IMG/VR virus record: IMGVR_UViG_3300046542_000623
Location: 1-32,331 of that record
Reading direction: 5' to 3' (one strand)
From: a virus
Length of the DNA: 32,331 nt
Shown: piece by piece, positions 2,528-23,960 of the stretch
How positions within the stretch are numbered: the stretch's first letter is position 1
How the letters are laid out: every line of letters starts with the position of its first letter
Notes under the pieces: generated by a model
Told to the model about the DNA's origin: nothing
Database searches by the model: none
The model's input: the letters and a program-made list of their open reading frames with translations, nothing else
Made by a program: the position numbers and the translations under genes

Positions 2528-4663
2528 TCATGTGGTGCTTTCGATGGATTCGAGTTCGGTGTAATCCGCGCTCAACGCCCAGCGTTCGACCATGTCTTCG
2601 GGCTGCGCGTTGGGGTCCTTGGACAACTCGAGCATCCATGCGCGGTCCCCTTGCTGCTGGGTAAGCGTCCCGATTCGTCCCTTGGTGGGCAGCAGTTTCT
2701 TGCCAGGTCCGCGTAGGTCGACGCGGATTCGAACCTGCTGGCCCGGGGTAAAGGCCTGGGGGGAATCGGCCTCTGCAGCAGCCATGGCATCTGCAATGGC
2801 TCGCGTGGTTTCCTCGGCCGACGCCTTGGCATTTTTTTTCAGTTTGGGCTGGGCTATGTCTGCCGGCTGGCTCTTGCCGGCGCGCTCTGCAGCCTCCTTC
2901 TTCATCGCATCTTGTGTGTCCTTCTGGATGGCTGCCAGGGACACGCCCGCAAGGCCGTGCAGCTCCTCGAGGTAGTTGGCTTGCCCATTGGGCCGCGGTT
3001 CCAGATCTTGGGTGCTCGCCAATTGAAGAATGAACTGCAACTGGGTGGTCAGCTCTTGCTCCGAGGCGCATTCCATTGCCTCATCGAGATCGACCTCCGC
3101 GCGTGGATCACTCAGCGGGATCTGGAACATCAGAAAGAGCTGCTCGCGCGGCACGCTGGCAGCCAGTTGCTTCAAAACCAACAATGCAATGTTGCTGGGA
3201 ATGTGATCCAGATCCTCAGGCGGGCAGTTCGCCAGTCCGAGAATCGTGGCTTCCACCGCGCGCTTTCGCCAGCGCCTCTGGTACTCGGTCTCGAGTTCAT
3301 CCCGGGTTGGATCGATTGATTTTTGGCTATTGGCCTTCTTTTGAGACTGGCTTTCGACCTTTGCTTTAACTGCGGCGCTGGCGGCATGCGTGGGCACGGC
3401 CTCCACAAGGTTTCCGCTAGGCGCCTCTATCAGCACGACGCTGGCTGCTGAGACTTCTTGGCCCAGCACCTGGCGCACGGGGGCTTTGCTGCCCTGGCTG
3501 GGCTTGTCAAGCAGGATATAGCCGCGGGGAGAACCTGTTTCGCTCGGCATGATGTCGCGGGCAGCGCGGCCGGTGATGATCTGCTGTCCGCGCTGAGCGG
3601 CGTCAGCCTTCACGCGGTCGAAGTGGGCATCCTTCTTTTCGGCGAAGCATGCTGTGTCAGTACAGACGTCTGCATCGTTTTTGTCCCATAGTTCGGGCGT
3701 GGCGCCGGTGCGCTTGGGGCACACCGTGCAGGCGCCCGCCGTCTGGCACAGATTCACATCGTCCAGGGCGAATGGGGCCTGGTCGAGCTTGGTCATGTAG
3801 TTGCGACGGGCCAGATCCAGGGCGCTGCGGTAGCTCATGGGGCCGTCTTCTGGCCCGCCCGTGAGGACGCGATTCGTGAATTCAGCCTGCATTGCCTGGG
3901 TAGGGCGCTGCGCCACCAATAGAGCGACACTGCGCTTGAGGGTGCCGGCCTTGAGTGCCGCCATCGCTTCAGGGCAAAGCGTCAGCAGGCGCAGGGATTC
4001 GAAGACGTGGGAGCGACTCTTGCGCAGTGCCTCTGCCGCAGCCTCGGGCGTGTAGCCGTGCTCCTCGACCAAGTGCTGCACACCCTGTGCCTCCTCGAGC
4101 GCATTCAGGTCACGGCGGTGCAGGTTTTCGATCAACTGCATCAGCAGCGCTTGCTGGTTGTCAGCATCCTTCTCCAGGTGGGGCACCTCGCGCAACCCGG
4201 CGATCTGTGCAGCGCGATAGCGGCGCTCGCCGGCGATGATTTCGTGCGTGGCCTGACGTGTGGCCGCAGTCTCGAAGGTGTCCTGCAGGCGATCGCCCGG
4301 TAGACGGCGTGTCAGCAAGGGCTGAAGCACGCCATATATCTTCATGGTGGCGGCCATCTCGTAGAGGTCGTCATCCTCTACAACGGGGCGGTTGGTGCGA
4401 CTTGGGGCAAGACGCACCAGCAAGATCGTGGGCTGCTTGATCACTGCGTGCTGAGGGCCAGCATGCTGCTCCACGACTTCGAAGGCATCCAGTGGCAGGT
4501 TGGTCAGTATGTCGCCGACACGGATCTGATACTGCCGGCCGCCGGGCGTCTTGGCAATTACGGTGCCACGCTGGCCCGCCTGCGGATGCTGTTTGCCGCC
4601 TTTGGCTGTCGCATCCGCACTGATAATTACTTCGCGGTAAATGAGTGGATCAGACCGTGCCAT
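2528..4663 (-). CDS. parB: Large ParB/Spo0J-family nuclease-fold DNA-binding protein
   Basis: The 711-aa product has the ParB core: GVLQPLLTRR (111-120), the C-motif IIAGERRYRAAQIAGL (142-157), ENLHRRDLNALEEAQG (179-194) and a helix-turn-helix around 203-225 (YTPEAAAEALRKSRSHV). A cysteine cluster CQTAGACTVCP...CTDTACF at about 305-340 resembles a zinc site found in large phage and plasmid ParB-like proteins. Both ends look like KOW/SH3-type beta folds: GQRGTVIAKTPGGRQYQIR near residue 30 and GRIGTLTQQQGDRAWMLEL near 660. Usual ParB is about 300 aa, so this is more than twice as long. No ParA is in the window, so classical partition is doubtful; transcription control or nucleoid-type binding is an alternative. 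Its ATG overlaps the preceding stop (TAATG at 4661-4665), implying translational coupling. Confidence 0.9.
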   Translation of the reverse strand: MARSDPLIYREVIISADATAKGGKQHPQAGQRGTVIAKTPGGRQYQIRVGDILTNLPLDAFEVVEQHAGPQHAVIKQPTILLVRLAPSRTNRPVVEDDDLYEMAATMKIYGVLQPLLTRRLPGDRLQDTFETAATRQATHEIIAGERRYRAAQIAGLREVPHLEKDADNQQALLMQLIENLHRRDLNALEEAQGVQHLVEEHGYTPEAAAEALRKSRSHVFESLRLLTLCPEAMAALKAGTLKRSVALLVAQRPTQAMQAEFTNRVLTGGPEDGPMSYRSALDLARRNYMTKLDQAPFALDDVNLCQTAGACTVCPKRTGATPELWDKNDADVCTDTACFAEKKDAHFDRVKADAAQRGQQIITGRAARDIMPSETGSPRGYILLDKPSQGSKAPVRQVLGQEVSAASVVLIEAPSGNLVEAVPTHAASAAVKAKVESQSQKKANSQKSIDPTRDELETEYQRRWRKRAVEATILGLANCPPEDLDHIPSNIALLVLKQLAASVPREQLFLMFQIPLSDPRAEVDLDEAMECASEQELTTQLQFILQLASTQDLEPRPNGQANYLEELHGLAGVSLAAIQKDTQDAMKKEAAERAGKSQPADIAQPKLKKNAKASAEETTRAIADAMAAAEADSPQAFTPGQQVRIRVDLRGPGKKLLPTKGRIGTLTQQQGDRAWMLELSKDPNAQPEDMVERWALSADYTELESIESTT

Positions 4664-5538: not shown

Positions 5539-6392
5539 GGTGGCACCTCGGTCAGGTTTCCGAAGCTGTCGGGCACCATGAAAAACTTGTCAGACTGGAA
5601 GTGAAGGCCGTCCTGCTGGCGTGTGGTTTGGCCGCAGTAGTAATGAGCGCTGTTACCTTGGTACTGGCGAAACACCTGCAGCCGATCGTCGACCCAGACC
5701 CAGAAAGGATTGCCGGATGACGCTACAGTCGCCGCGTAGCCGTTATGACCTATGTCTAGGTCAAGCGTGATCTTTGCAGCGCCTCCTCCGGGCAGAACTG
5801 CACGGGACTCAAGAATGAGGGGCAGTTCGTAGGGAGGCTCCAGGTCTTCGCTGGAATTTGCATAGACAAGTAGCTCGGTTAGCGCCTCACTGGCAGGCAA
5901 AAACACAGGCGGTATTTCAAATAGGTTGACTTTGTTCGATTCGAAATACTCCAGCGGCGTGCTGATAGCTTCCAACTCTGCCAGGCTTAGGGTCGAAAGG
6001 GCGACACTGCCGTCAAGGAAGGATTTGCCATCCCAGGGTGTGAGATCGCCATAGACCAAGTCGACCGCGTCGCGGTAGGCCTGGCTGCCGATGAGGGCGA
6101 TTTCAGCCTCCGTGCCGTAAATGACCGTTGAGCGCAATTCACCCTGTCCTTCCCAAGGCTCTTGGAGGATGGGATTGCCACCTGCCGCAGCCACATAGTC
6201 GTCGGTGACGTAGGCGGTGACTGCGTGAGTTTCCGACATCAACACGGCTCTCGCGTGACCGGGTTGATTGATGGCATGCGATATGGCCGCCAGGATCAGC
6301 GAGGCCTGACGCGGGTTGTCAACGGGGATGTCGTCGGGCCGCTGGCAGTGGTGGCCGCAGCTCCATTCGGTAAATCGAAGGGTGAGGCTCAT
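5529..6392 (-). CDS. Hypothetical 287-aa early-operon protein
   Basis: I do not recognise a family. The N-terminus holds a Cys/His-rich segment (TEWSCGHHCQRPDD, about residues 8-21) that could bind metal. The middle and C-terminal parts are acidic and mixed alpha/beta, with a beta-rich tail (GNPFWVWVDDRLQVFRQY near 226-243; YYCGQTTRQQDGLHF near 251). It has no signal peptide or membrane segment. It is the second gene of the leftward operon. The start overlaps the stop of the 76-aa gene (ATGA at 6389-6392) and its end overlaps the 45-aa gene by 10 bp. Its position right after the leftward promoter suggests early expression, possibly host takeover or anti-host functions; this is positional inference. 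Confidence 0.7.
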   Translation of the reverse strand: MSLTLRFTEWSCGHHCQRPDDIPVDNPRQASLILAAISHAINQPGHARAVLMSETHAVTAYVTDDYVAAAGGNPILQEPWEGQGELRSTVIYGTEAEIALIGSQAYRDAVDLVYGDLTPWDGKSFLDGSVALSTLSLAELEAISTPLEYFESNKVNLFEIPPVFLPASEALTELLVYANSSEDLEPPYELPLILESRAVLPGGGAAKITLDLDIGHNGYAATVASSGNPFWVWVDDRLQVFRQYQGNSAHYYCGQTTRQQDGLHFQSDKFFMVPDSFGNLTEVPPWN

Positions 6393-6619
6393 GCCGCACC
6401 TCGCAGTCGCGCAGTGGGCAGGGCGAGATCGGTAGTCTCGATCGAAGCATGGGCGCGAGTGACATCGAGCATCAACTGCGTGATGCCGATATGGCTCCGC
6501 AACTTCACCAGCAGTCGCTCGACTTCGGTATCTTGGTGCGGATCGTTCTCGAAGCCGGCAACGAAATGCTCGGCTTCTTCCAGCGTTTCATGCAGCGCTA
6601 GAAGGGGGGCAATGGACAT
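6389..6619 (-). CDS. First gene of the leftward early operon, small helical protein
   Basis: The 76-aa product (MSIAPLLALHETLEEAEHF at the start) is predicted to be nearly all helix and acidic in its first half. No family is recognised. The start is strongly supported: GGAGG lies 5 bp upstream of the ATG at 6619, and a near-consensus promoter lies at 6655-6682. The stop overlaps the next start by ATGA. It is therefore the promoter-proximal gene of the repressor-controlled leftward transcript, the position lambda gives to N. It is not visibly arginine-rich like N, so an antiterminator role is not supported. Confidence 0.7.
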   Translation of the reverse strand: MSIAPLLALHETLEEAEHFVAGFENDPHQDTEVERLLVKLRSHIGITQLMLDVTRAHASIETTDLALPTARLRGAA

Positions 6620-6654: not shown

Positions 6655-6682
6655 ATTATCCAAAATGGATTAAATGTGTCAA
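6655..6682 (-). promoter_or_regulatory. Leftward early promoter (PL-like)
   Basis: Read on the minus strand, a perfect -35 TTGACA (6682-6677) is followed by a 16-bp spacer and the -10 GATAAT (6660-6655; 5 of 6 matches). One operator half overlaps the -35 and the other covers the spacer and -10. Transcription would start near 6648 and enter the 76-aa gene, 29 bp before its ATG. Confidence 0.8.
6658..6670. promoter_or_regulatory. Repressor operator OL copy 1 (ATCCA-AAA-TGGAT)
   Basis: A 13-bp site with perfect inverted arms ATCCA/TGGAT around a 3-bp centre. It overlaps the -10 and spacer of the leftward promoter. The same arms recur at three other places in the immunity region and form a mirror image with copy 2. 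Confidence 0.75.
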
Positions 6683-6694
6683 TCCATTTTGGAT
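6682..6694. promoter_or_regulatory. Repressor operator OL copy 2 (ATCCA-TTT-TGGAT)
   Basis: The second 13-bp copy, 24 bp centre to centre from copy 1, touches the -35 of the leftward promoter. The two copies together make a larger inverted repeat (6658-6694). Binding of a repressor here would exclude RNA polymerase. Confidence 0.75.
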
Positions 6695-6711
6695 TTTATG
6701 TGTGCTCCGTA

Positions 6712-7179
6712 TCAATCGTCTCTTGCTTGTGCTTCGGCGCGCGCAGCGGTCCGCACAGTGGCATCGCTCAAGTCGGCCAGCATGAGACTCATTTCTTTGG
6801 CTACTTTTGAGAATACGAAAATCAGCGCTGCCAAGGCGAGGCCGCCTAACAGCGCTCCGACCCCAGCAGAGAAAGATGCCGTGATTCCGCCAATGGCGAT
6901 CAAGACAGAGGCGATCACGCCAAGCCAATAAGCAATCTTCACGACTGTCCTGAAGGTGGGGTAGATGCTTTCTTGCCGCAGCTGAGAAGCGAAAGAATGA
7001 TGGTCCCGCTTGAAGTATGGGGATGAAGTTGGCGCAGGTAGGGGGCGTGCAGGAGGTCCTTCCCTCATCGCCTGTTCCACCTTTGCATAGACTGCACCGC
7101 AGGCGGGGCAAGCCGTCGGGGCCTCGGCAATGTACTCTGCGCTATGGCCGCACTTCAAGCACTTTTTGTTCTGTGTCAT
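6712..7179 (-). CDS. Zinc-ribbon membrane protein next to the repressor
   Basis: The 155-aa product has an N-terminal four-cysteine zinc ribbon (KCLKCGHSAEYIAE...CPACGAVYAK, residues about 8-32), a linker, then two hydrophobic helices (about 82-103, IAYWLGVIASVLIAIGGI; and 108-127, VGALLGGLALAALIFVFSK). A soluble helical tail follows (ATVRTAARAEAQARDD). It lies 57 bp downstream of the repressor gene on the same strand and upstream of the operator-controlled promoter, so it is probably co-transcribed with the repressor and made in the lysogen. That location is typical of immunity-linked accessory genes such as superinfection exclusion or lysogenic conversion. The molecular role is unknown. Stop at 6712 lies just before OL. 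Confidence 0.7.
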   Translation of the reverse strand: MTQNKKCLKCGHSAEYIAEAPTACPACGAVYAKVEQAMREGPPARPLPAPTSSPYFKRDHHSFASQLRQESIYPTFRTVVKIAYWLGVIASVLIAIGGITASFSAGVGALLGGLALAALIFVFSKVAKEMSLMLADLSDATVRTAARAEAQARDD

Positions 7180-7236
7180 CGCGTCTCCCTCCCAGGAAAG
7201 TAGTAAATTTTTGCTGGCGATGCGCCCGGCGGAGCT

Positions 7237-7635
7237 CTAGTTTGTTGTGCCGTTCTTCGCCGGGGCAGCACTTTTGATGTGTTCTGTTTCGTCAGGCAGG
7301 GGGGCGACAGCATTGATCATTGCGTCGATTGCGGACCATAGGCTTTCGGGAAGGCGCCCCAATCGTTCCAGGTGGATGATTTTGCGGACTATCGCCTGAG
7401 CTGTGGTGCTAAGGCCATCGATTGAATCGTTAGGCTCAACTCCATAGGCGAGCCAAGTTCGAGTGACCTTTAGGTGGTCCGCAATCGTATTGATGTCTTC
7501 AAAAGACGGCTGGCGTGTGCCTGCAAGCCACTTCTGCATGCCTGCTGGTGTCATGCCGAATTGCTCGGCTAGACGCTCTTGAGATACGCCCAGATCTCTC
7601 ATGCGGTGCTTAGCCCGCTCTCTCCATGTATCCAT
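7237..7635 (-). CDS. CI-type HTH repressor without protease domain
   Basis: From MDTWRERAKHRM the product is 132 aa with an XRE-type helix-turn-helix at about 17-38 (SQERLAEQFGMTPAGMQKWL). This is followed by DINTIADHLKVTRTWLAYG, the usual repressor continuation. The C-terminal part is helical (RKIIHLERLGRLPESLWSAI) and probably dimerises. There is no S24/LexA autoprotease domain, so induction by RecA-stimulated self-cleavage is not expected. The frame is open up to 7719, but those codons cross the operator sites, so the ATG at 7635 is preferred, leaving a leader of roughly 60 bp. It faces the Cro-like gene across two operators. It is the likely ligand of the ATCCA-NNN-TGGAT sites. Confidence 0.8.
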   Translation of the reverse strand: MDTWRERAKHRMRDLGVSQERLAEQFGMTPAGMQKWLAGTRQPSFEDINTIADHLKVTRTWLAYGVEPNDSIDGLSTTAQAIVRKIIHLERLGRLPESLWSAIDAMINAVAPLPDETEHIKSAAPAKNGTTN

Positions 7636-7693
7636 GAAGCAAGTGTCCCAAGGCGCAACCTTATGCGGAATGCACAAAATGGAGTTCATAGCT

Positions 7694-7722
7694 TTGCAAT
7701 CCATTGTGGATTGATCCATAAT
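7694..7722 (+). promoter_or_regulatory. Rightward early promoter (PR-like)
   Basis: A -35 TTGCAA (7694-7699; 4 of 6) is separated by 17 bp from the -10 CATAAT (7717-7722; 5 of 6). Both operator copies of the OR pair overlap it. The expected transcription start, 6-7 bp after the -10, coincides with the ATG of the Cro-like gene at 7729, predicting a leaderless message. Confidence 0.6.
7699..7711. promoter_or_regulatory. Repressor operator OR copy 1 (ATCCA-TTG-TGGAT)
   Basis: Third copy of the 13-bp operator with perfect ATCCA/TGGAT arms. It occupies the spacer of the rightward promoter, in the divergent region between the repressor and the Cro-like gene. Confidence 0.75.
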
Positions 7723-7726
7723 GGAT
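7714..7726. promoter_or_regulatory. Repressor operator OR copy 2 (ATCCA-TAA-TGGAT)
   Basis: Fourth copy of the operator, 15 bp centre to centre from copy 1. It covers the -10 of the rightward promoter and ends 2 bp before the ATG of the Cro-like gene. The tighter spacing than at OL (15 against 24 bp) may give different cooperativity. Confidence 0.75.
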
Positions 7727-7728
7727 CA

Positions 7729-7953
7729 ATGCAATTAAGAACCTATCTCCAGCAGCATGGCTTCACCATGGCTTCGTTCGGTCAGCGCCTTGCTCCGCCC
7801 GTAAGTGCCGGCAAGGTCAATCACTGGTTGCGTGGAACGCGCCGGGTGAGTCTGGAAGAGGCATTGCAGATCCATGCCCTGACCCAAGGCGAAGTCAGCC
7901 TGCAAGATTTGGCAAGTCGAGAAGCGCCTCAACCGGCATTGGCTAATGCGTAG
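7729..7953 (+). CDS. Cro/YdaS-like small HTH regulator
   Basis: The 74-aa product (MQLRTYLQQHGFTMASFGQR) reads like a YdaS/Cro-type helix-turn-helix protein. Helices span residues about 3-40, including VSAGKVNHWLRGTRRVSLEEA as the recognition and following helix, then IHALTQGEVSLQDL, the usual YdaS ending. It is the first gene right of the repressor and is transcribed away from it. The ATG is only 2 bp downstream of an operator, with no room for a Shine-Dalgarno site, so the message is predicted to be leaderless. A longer frame from 7579 would overlap the repressor gene and is not credible. An internal ATG at 7768 is an alternative start. It would act as the lytic antagonist of the repressor. 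Confidence 0.75.
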   Translation: MQLRTYLQQHGFTMASFGQRLAPPVSAGKVNHWLRGTRRVSLEEALQIHALTQGEVSLQDLASREAPQPALANA

Positions 7954-8439: not shown

Positions 8440-8478
8440 TTCGATACATGGGTTCATGTATCGAAGTCTCTTTTTTTT
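8440..8478 (+). terminator. Second rightward hairpin with T-tract
   Basis: An 11-bp perfect inverted repeat, TTCGATACATG and CATGTATCGAA (8440-8465) with a GGTT loop, is followed 5 bp later by eight T residues (8471-8478). It can act as a second terminator in tandem. The symmetric duplex could also be a protein-binding site. Confidence 0.55.
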
Positions 8479-8492
8479 GCCTGCGTGAGTCA

Positions 8493-8529
8493 TTCCGAAC
8501 GGTTCCGAATGATTCGGAACCGTTCGGAA
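8493..8529. repeat. 37-bp perfect palindrome of four TTCCGAA heptamers
   Basis: Two 18-bp arms are exact reverse complements around a single G at 8511. Each arm is itself a direct repeat: TTCCGAA-CGG-TTCCGAA on the left and TTCGGAA-CCG-TTCGGAA on the right. It sits 31 bp upstream of the CII-like gene, after the terminators, with no T-tract of its own. An operator for a dimeric or tetrameric regulator of the replication genes is the simplest reading. Confidence 0.8.
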
Positions 8530-8560: not shown

Positions 8561-8944
8561 GTGAGCGATGAAATTTTGATGTACGACGATGAGTTGGAGG
8601 CCGCAAAGGCCGCTGTTCAGCGGCTGGGCGGGGCGAAGAAGGTGGGCGAAATGCTGTACCCAGATAAGCAGCCTGAGGCCGCTGCGCGCTATTTGCTTGA
8701 TGCATTGAACCCGTCCCGTGCCGAGCGATTGAGCCCCTCGCAATTGCTGCTCCTGATGCGCAAGGCGCGGGAAGTCGGCTTCCATGGCCTGGCAGCTTAC
8801 TTCATGCGTGAAGCCGGATACACCCCACCTGTGCCCCTGGACCCGGTGACCGAAGTCACACGCATCACACAAAGCTTGGAGCGTGTGATGGGCGTGGCAC
8901 AGCAGCTGGTGGCGCAGCTGGAACGCACGAAGGGCCAAGGTTAA
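8561..8944 (+). CDS. CII-like phage regulatory protein
   Basis: The 127-aa product (MSDEILMYDDELEAAKAA) contains LGGAKKVGEMLYPDKQPEA and YLLDALNPSRAERLSPSQLL (about 22-62). This layout matches the Phage_CP76/CII-type regulators found between cro and replication genes: a helix-turn-helix, then an asparagine-proline turn, then SPSQLL. The C-terminal third is helical (RITQSLERVMGVAQQLVAQL) and likely multimerises. The start is GTG, supported by AGAGGTG 5-7 bp upstream; the nearby ATG is in another frame. Its stop overlaps the primase start (TAATG at 8942-8946). The 37-bp palindrome just upstream is a candidate binding site for it or for a partner. Confidence 0.6.
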   Translation: MSDEILMYDDELEAAKAAVQRLGGAKKVGEMLYPDKQPEAAARYLLDALNPSRAERLSPSQLLLLMRKAREVGFHGLAAYFMREAGYTPPVPLDPVTEVTRITQSLERVMGVAQQLVAQLERTKGQG

Positions 8945-23937: not shown

Positions 23938-23960
23938 CTTTCGCCCCTTGAACATCCAAA

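Follow-up and report, generated by a model that had tools for sequence, protein, structure and literature searches.

A lambda-type immunity region with a new 13-bp putative operator at two divergent promoters of a temperate phage

The logic of lambda-type immunity is established. In phage lambda, the repressor gene lies between two divergent promoters, each overlapped by a repeated palindrome; there are three operators on each side, the repressor carries a cleavable domain, rexAB occupy an accessory position and the cII gene follows cro. The immB regions of the telomere phages N15, phiKO2 and PY54, whose prophages are linear plasmids, keep a lambda-like repressor-OR-cro arrangement with operators of 16-18 bp (PMC4488713). 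Operator number varies within the lambda-type class: two OL and three OR sites are present in N15 and phiKO2, and a single OR site in PY54 (PMC4488713). In CP-933P (PaaR2/YdaS/YdaT), a peptidase-less CI-like repressor is paired with a divergent YdaS-type Cro and a CII-type third gene, paaA2-parE2 cargo is located between the repressor and PL, and related repeats occur at both PL and PR (PMC8630535).

Here, we analyzed a 32,331-nucleotide viral record (IMGVR_UViG_3300046542_000623; the whole record is referred to as the window) and found a new representative of lambda-type immunity regions, with regulators closest to those of CP-933P and a new putative 13-bp operator. The record is that of a temperate phage with lambda gene order: an integrase is encoded at 1-1050, and the rightward order is cro, a CII-like gene and primase/helicase genes, then terminase, portal and head genes. 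As in lambda, the repressor gene is flanked by two divergent promoters overlapped by palindromes, a cargo gene sits in the rexAB position and the CII-like gene lies downstream of cro. However, there are two clear sites per side instead of three, operator sequence and spacing differ, the repressor lacks the cleavable domain and PRM is not recognizable. Two OL sites are shared with N15 and phiKO2, which differ in having three OR sites, and the operators of all three telomere phages are of other sequence. CP-933P has 18-bp palindromes, four of them intergenic, rather than 13-bp sites with two per side; furthermore, its third gene, as in the Rac type, is the POU-type YdaT, whereas the third gene here matches the PHROG CII-like family and not YdaT. 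The general picture of temperate-phage control is unchanged by this locus.

A scan of the whole record identified four exact ATCCA-N3-TGGAT palindromes and no fifth copy: two on the left, at 6658-6670 (ATCCAAAATGGAT) and 6682-6694 (ATCCATTTTGGAT), and two on the right, at 7699-7711 (ATCCATTGTGGAT) and 7714-7726 (ATCCATAATGGAT). A first-pass annotation had described these four sites with perfect arms, spaced 24 bp (left pair) and 15 bp (right pair) from centre to centre, and had read them as OL and OR pairs each overlapping a sigma70-like promoter. Positions, arms and both spacings proved correct, and the OL/OR reading survived the scan, which uncovered no scattered copies. Base composition predicts 0.016 exact copies. 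The reversed control pattern was absent from the whole record, none of the other 5-3-5 palindrome arms exceeded two occurrences in the window, and 100 Markov-1 sequences yielded no family of four. We also considered that the four sites merely cluster by chance, in keeping with the chance-level count of copies with two mismatches; the only copy with one mismatch, at 23954, is likewise at chance level. This explanation is refuted by the four exact copies against 0.016 expected and by the retention of every one of these positions across the five relatives (see below).

The promoter scan bore out the overlap of each pair with a promoter. PL (6655-6682, minus strand; 11/12) combines TTGACA at 6682-6677 and GATAAT at 6660-6655 across a 16-bp spacer and is conserved in the relatives; PR (7694-7722, plus strand; 9/12) combines TTGCAA at 7694-7699 and CATAAT at 7717-7722 across 17 bp, a geometry kept in the five relatives. 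Both are sigma70-like and they diverge, each pointing away from the repressor gene. The left sites lie over the PL -10 (6658) and abut its -35 (6682); the right sites lie at the PR -35/spacer (7699) and over the PR -10 (7714). In both pairs, the first site shares just one base with the -35 hexamer. The PR -35 is weak, with TTGTGA or TTGCGA in relatives, so that only TTG is invariant.

The predicted PR +1, six bases past CATAAT, falls at 7729 in the window and at the equivalent base in L005-L009, and this is the A of the cro ATG. Because the two coincide, cro mRNA should be leaderless, a prediction that holds in the window and all five close relatives. In contrast, the first gene of the PL transcript (6389-6619, minus strand; a 76-aa product with no assigned function, from the ORF list) is preceded by a conserved GGAGG ribosome site, with AAACCTCC and the start region conserved. 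Leaderless mRNAs have been documented for PY54 cI and cro, the cro mRNA likewise beginning at AUG (PMC4488713), and for CP-933P paaR2 (PMC8630535); in CP-933P the leaderless message is therefore that of the repressor, whereas here it is predicted to be that of cro.

The CI-like and Cro-like regulators both have a helix-turn-helix (HTH) and are divergently transcribed, the arrangement by which a lambda-type immunity region is recognized. The repressor (7237-7635, minus strand; 132 aa) has a Cro/C1-type HTH (Pfam HTH_3, 2.6e-8; PHROG transcriptional repressors). Over residues 4-55 it is 46% identical to the C2 repressors of phage L and the P22 group, but the likeness ends at the HTH, and several of those proteins are annotated as LexA family. 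As in PaaR2 of CP-933P, an S24 peptidase domain is lacking: none was matched in the repressors of the five members scanned, all 129-132 aa long, and lambda-type SOS induction or cleavage thus cannot be assumed. A low-confidence AlphaFold model (pLDDT 63), too weak for a fold search, has a helical C-terminal part, and a PDB search with the repressor returned generic HTH proteins only (434 repressor, 0.0037). A longer repressor starting from an ATG at 7719, inside an operator, has an open frame in all five phages; we rejected it because that segment has no codon-position bias, the third-position bias beginning where the 132-aa frame starts.

The Cro-like regulator (7729-7953, plus strand; 74 aa) is YdaS-related (PF15943, 9.9e-6). 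The window protein scores 25.7 bits against a curated cut-off of 30, and all five members match the family, the best at 2.9e-8. A PDB search with Cro found nothing, and neither a protein search with Cro nor a nucleotide search gave a match among named phages. The CII-like regulator (8561-8944, plus strand; 127 aa) matches PHROG 101 at 6.4e-5, and its counterpart in the more divergent relative L026 is a clear Phage_CP76 CII (6.6e-37).

We then compared the locus with five IMG/VR contigs (L005-L009; records of 41-74 kb) whose repressors are 54-77% and whose Cro proteins are 61-78% identical to those of the window; L005 and L006 do not differ over the compared stretch and count as one independent case. 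In all five, the four sites have perfect arms, occupy the same places and are spaced, as in the window, by 24 and 15 bp; none of these phages has a further exact copy anywhere in its record. In a column alignment of the window and four relatives, invariant columns made up 39 of the 40 in the arms but 48 of the 129 in the flanking non-coding sequence (P about 7e-13); the fortieth arm column is an alignment-gap effect, the sites themselves being exact. Centres drift while the arms stay constant. The centre of the 7699 site is TTG, TCT or CTT in the alignment. At the 7714 site the centre is TAA; it belongs to the CATAAT -10 and never varies in the five. Phages with a related repressor thus keep arms, positions and spacings, and together with the site positions in L026 and the lambda-like gene order, this supports OL and OR as the probable identity of the two pairs.

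L026 is a sixth, divergent relative (repressor 44%, Cro 57% identical) with no copy of ATCCA-N3-TGGAT even at one mismatch. Sites with altered arms occupy the same four places: ATCCATATTAGAA at 4297 and ATCCAAAACAGAT at 4312, 15 bp apart, before cro, and GTACAAAACAGAT at 1438 and ATCCAAAACAGAT at 1463, 25 bp apart, on PL. The L026 PL is TTGACA-17-TACTAT, in comparison with a 16-bp spacer in the window, and this one extra base accounts for the left spacing of 25 rather than 24 bp; the sites follow the promoter hexamers, from which we infer that the hexamers may set where operators are placed. The recognition helix of the L026 repressor reads TPGGVQKW instead of TPAGMQKW (A31G and M33V, in helix 3). 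Its Cro helix, VSQGKVNHW, is that of L008, and L008 has standard arms. This one case hints, weakly, that arm sequence is dictated by the repressor. The group offers a new and well-delimited operator specificity that varies in nature: a single operator is common to five phages, and the sixth combines an altered repressor helix with altered arms.

The same comparison bears on whether Cro alone binds the four palindromes while the 132-aa HTH protein has some other regulatory target. CI-type and Cro-type proteins share operators in lambdoid phages, and both proteins here have a similar HTH; however, the gene order and the tracking of the L026 arm changes with the repressor helix, not the Cro helix, make this account very improbable.

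A third conserved non-coding block, GGAATGCACAAAATGG at 7667-7682, lies in the repressor leader. Thirteen of its 16 columns are invariant, whereas the leader as a whole has 21 invariant columns out of 63 (scan p = 0.0002), and its substitution pattern is not that of coding sequence. It is a candidate for the repressor promoter (PRM), a third operator or a Cro site. We did not find a good sigma70 match for the repressor's own promoter; a hexamer at 7669-7674 (TGCATT/TATATT), which would place the right operator near -43, was not assignable as PRM because two bases are inserted in L009 and the hexamer itself is poor. The first-pass count of two sites per side is right for exact copies but may be incomplete, since the block sits where a third site or the repressor promoter is expected.

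The block also raises a variant of the operator reading, in which the repressor alone would occupy the four palindromes and Cro would silence the repressor gene mainly by acting at 7667-7682. Conservation of this non-coding block beyond its surroundings is consistent with such a split, as are the L026 arms, which change with helix 3 of the repressor beside an L008-type Cro helix, and PY54 Cro, which binds a single site upstream of/next to cI (PMC4488713). On the other hand, there is only one divergent relative, the block may be no more than the repressor promoter, and PaaR2 and YdaS of CP-933P each give footprints on overlapping sites at the two promoters (PMC8630535). We regard this variant as possible but clearly the less probable form of the operator reading.

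Overall, we put the probability that the four sites are operators of a lambda-type lysogeny switch at roughly 0.9. Half-sites are 10 bp apart in 434 and lambda; the 8 bp seen here is short and counts against an operator reading, as do the poor sigma70 match of the repressor's own promoter and the occurrence of the motif in unrelated contexts (see below). In the switch we propose, a dimer of the 132-aa repressor would bind each ATCCA-N3-TGGAT palindrome, and the YdaS-like Cro would probably bind the same palindromes too. In the prophage, PL would be blocked by the 6658/6682 pair and PR by the 7699/7714 pair, in both cases by hexamer occlusion; with the -35 and -10 elements covered, the early leftward genes and the cro, CII-like and replication genes would be silent. 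A promoter within the repressor leader would drive leftward transcription of the repressor and the cargo gene. The sites, promoters, gene order and conservation are read from the sequence, and from these we infer the identity of the binding protein, the order of occupancy and repressor autoregulation; Cro would act on the repressor promoter via either the four sites or the block at 7667-7682.

A more specific form of this switch is tentative: two operators per side, positioned by the hexamers, would each occlude the promoter independently, with no need for cooperative tetramers like those of lambda, the repressor would not be SOS-cleavable and Cro would use a separate leader element. The occurrence of 15-, 24- and 25-bp spacings fits hexamer positioning and no fixed dimer-dimer geometry. 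The locus offers a compact switch in which to test whether occlusion works without cooperativity of the lambda type, whether cro is leaderless and whether the repressor is non-cleavable.

The repeats could instead be nucleic-acid structures (hairpins or attenuators) or host-factor sites rather than phage operators, given that they are palindromic and close to transcript starts. We consider this highly unlikely: all four sites are upstream of the predicted +1 positions and so lie outside the PL and PR transcripts, a hairpin with a 5-bp stem and a 3-base loop is weak, and the sites are confined to two promoters in a single group of phages, with none beside a repressor or cro gene in the species-level bacterial genomes scanned. 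A GTDB profile search with the repressor found no relative. The tandem operator pattern was found in nine GTDB bacterial genome records, in three of which the palindromes directly precede PadR-like genes, in Chloroflexota and Acidobacteriota (L030, 1002-1029; L034, 1437-1464; L035, 1611-1638); these PadR-adjacent copies are an unrelated use of the motif. A search with the 24-bp OL pattern detected one unrelated group of high-GC phages with the motif between structural genes, as a CCCCCCCTATCCAAAATGGATAG direct repeat with a 24-bp step, flanked by a small HTH gene and a head-gene region (L036, 1815-1851; L037, 5191-5227). Since the motif occurs in unrelated contexts, it is the context and not the motif alone that identifies the system.

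The first-pass annotation had also noted that the sites flank the repressor gene and a zinc-ribbon gene. The positions hold, but the latter is cargo rather than part of the switch. This gene (6712-7179, minus strand; a 155-aa zinc-ribbon/DUF4282-like membrane protein, from sub-threshold Pfam matches) lies between the repressor and PL in a rex-like position, which is also that of paaA2-parE2 in CP-933P; it is kept in L005 and L009, whereas L008 and L026 have unrelated genes in its place, which makes it exchangeable cargo outside the switch. The same slot encodes other small proteins in L008 (4727-5451) and a DUF3037 protein with a 324-aa protein in L026 (1540-3875), and the slot genes are candidates for superinfection-exclusion or defence cargo. 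Further along the PL-side operon, 2528-4663 encodes a 711-aa ParB-like protein (ParB_N, HTH_ParB) with a counterpart in L005.

To the right of cro, an intrinsic terminator-like hairpin with a T-run (8440-8475) occupies the position of lambda tR1, with similar elements in L005 and L008. Between this strong hairpin and the CII-like gene, a 37-bp near-perfect palindrome at 8493-8529 contains four TTCCGAA/TTCGGAA units at 10-bp steps, which form TTCC-N6-TTCC direct repeats on each strand. The lambda CII site is TTGC-N6-TTGC, and by analogy the palindrome may be a site of the CII-like protein. It is kept in L005 (6795-6831) and L008 (7158-7194), and partly in L007.
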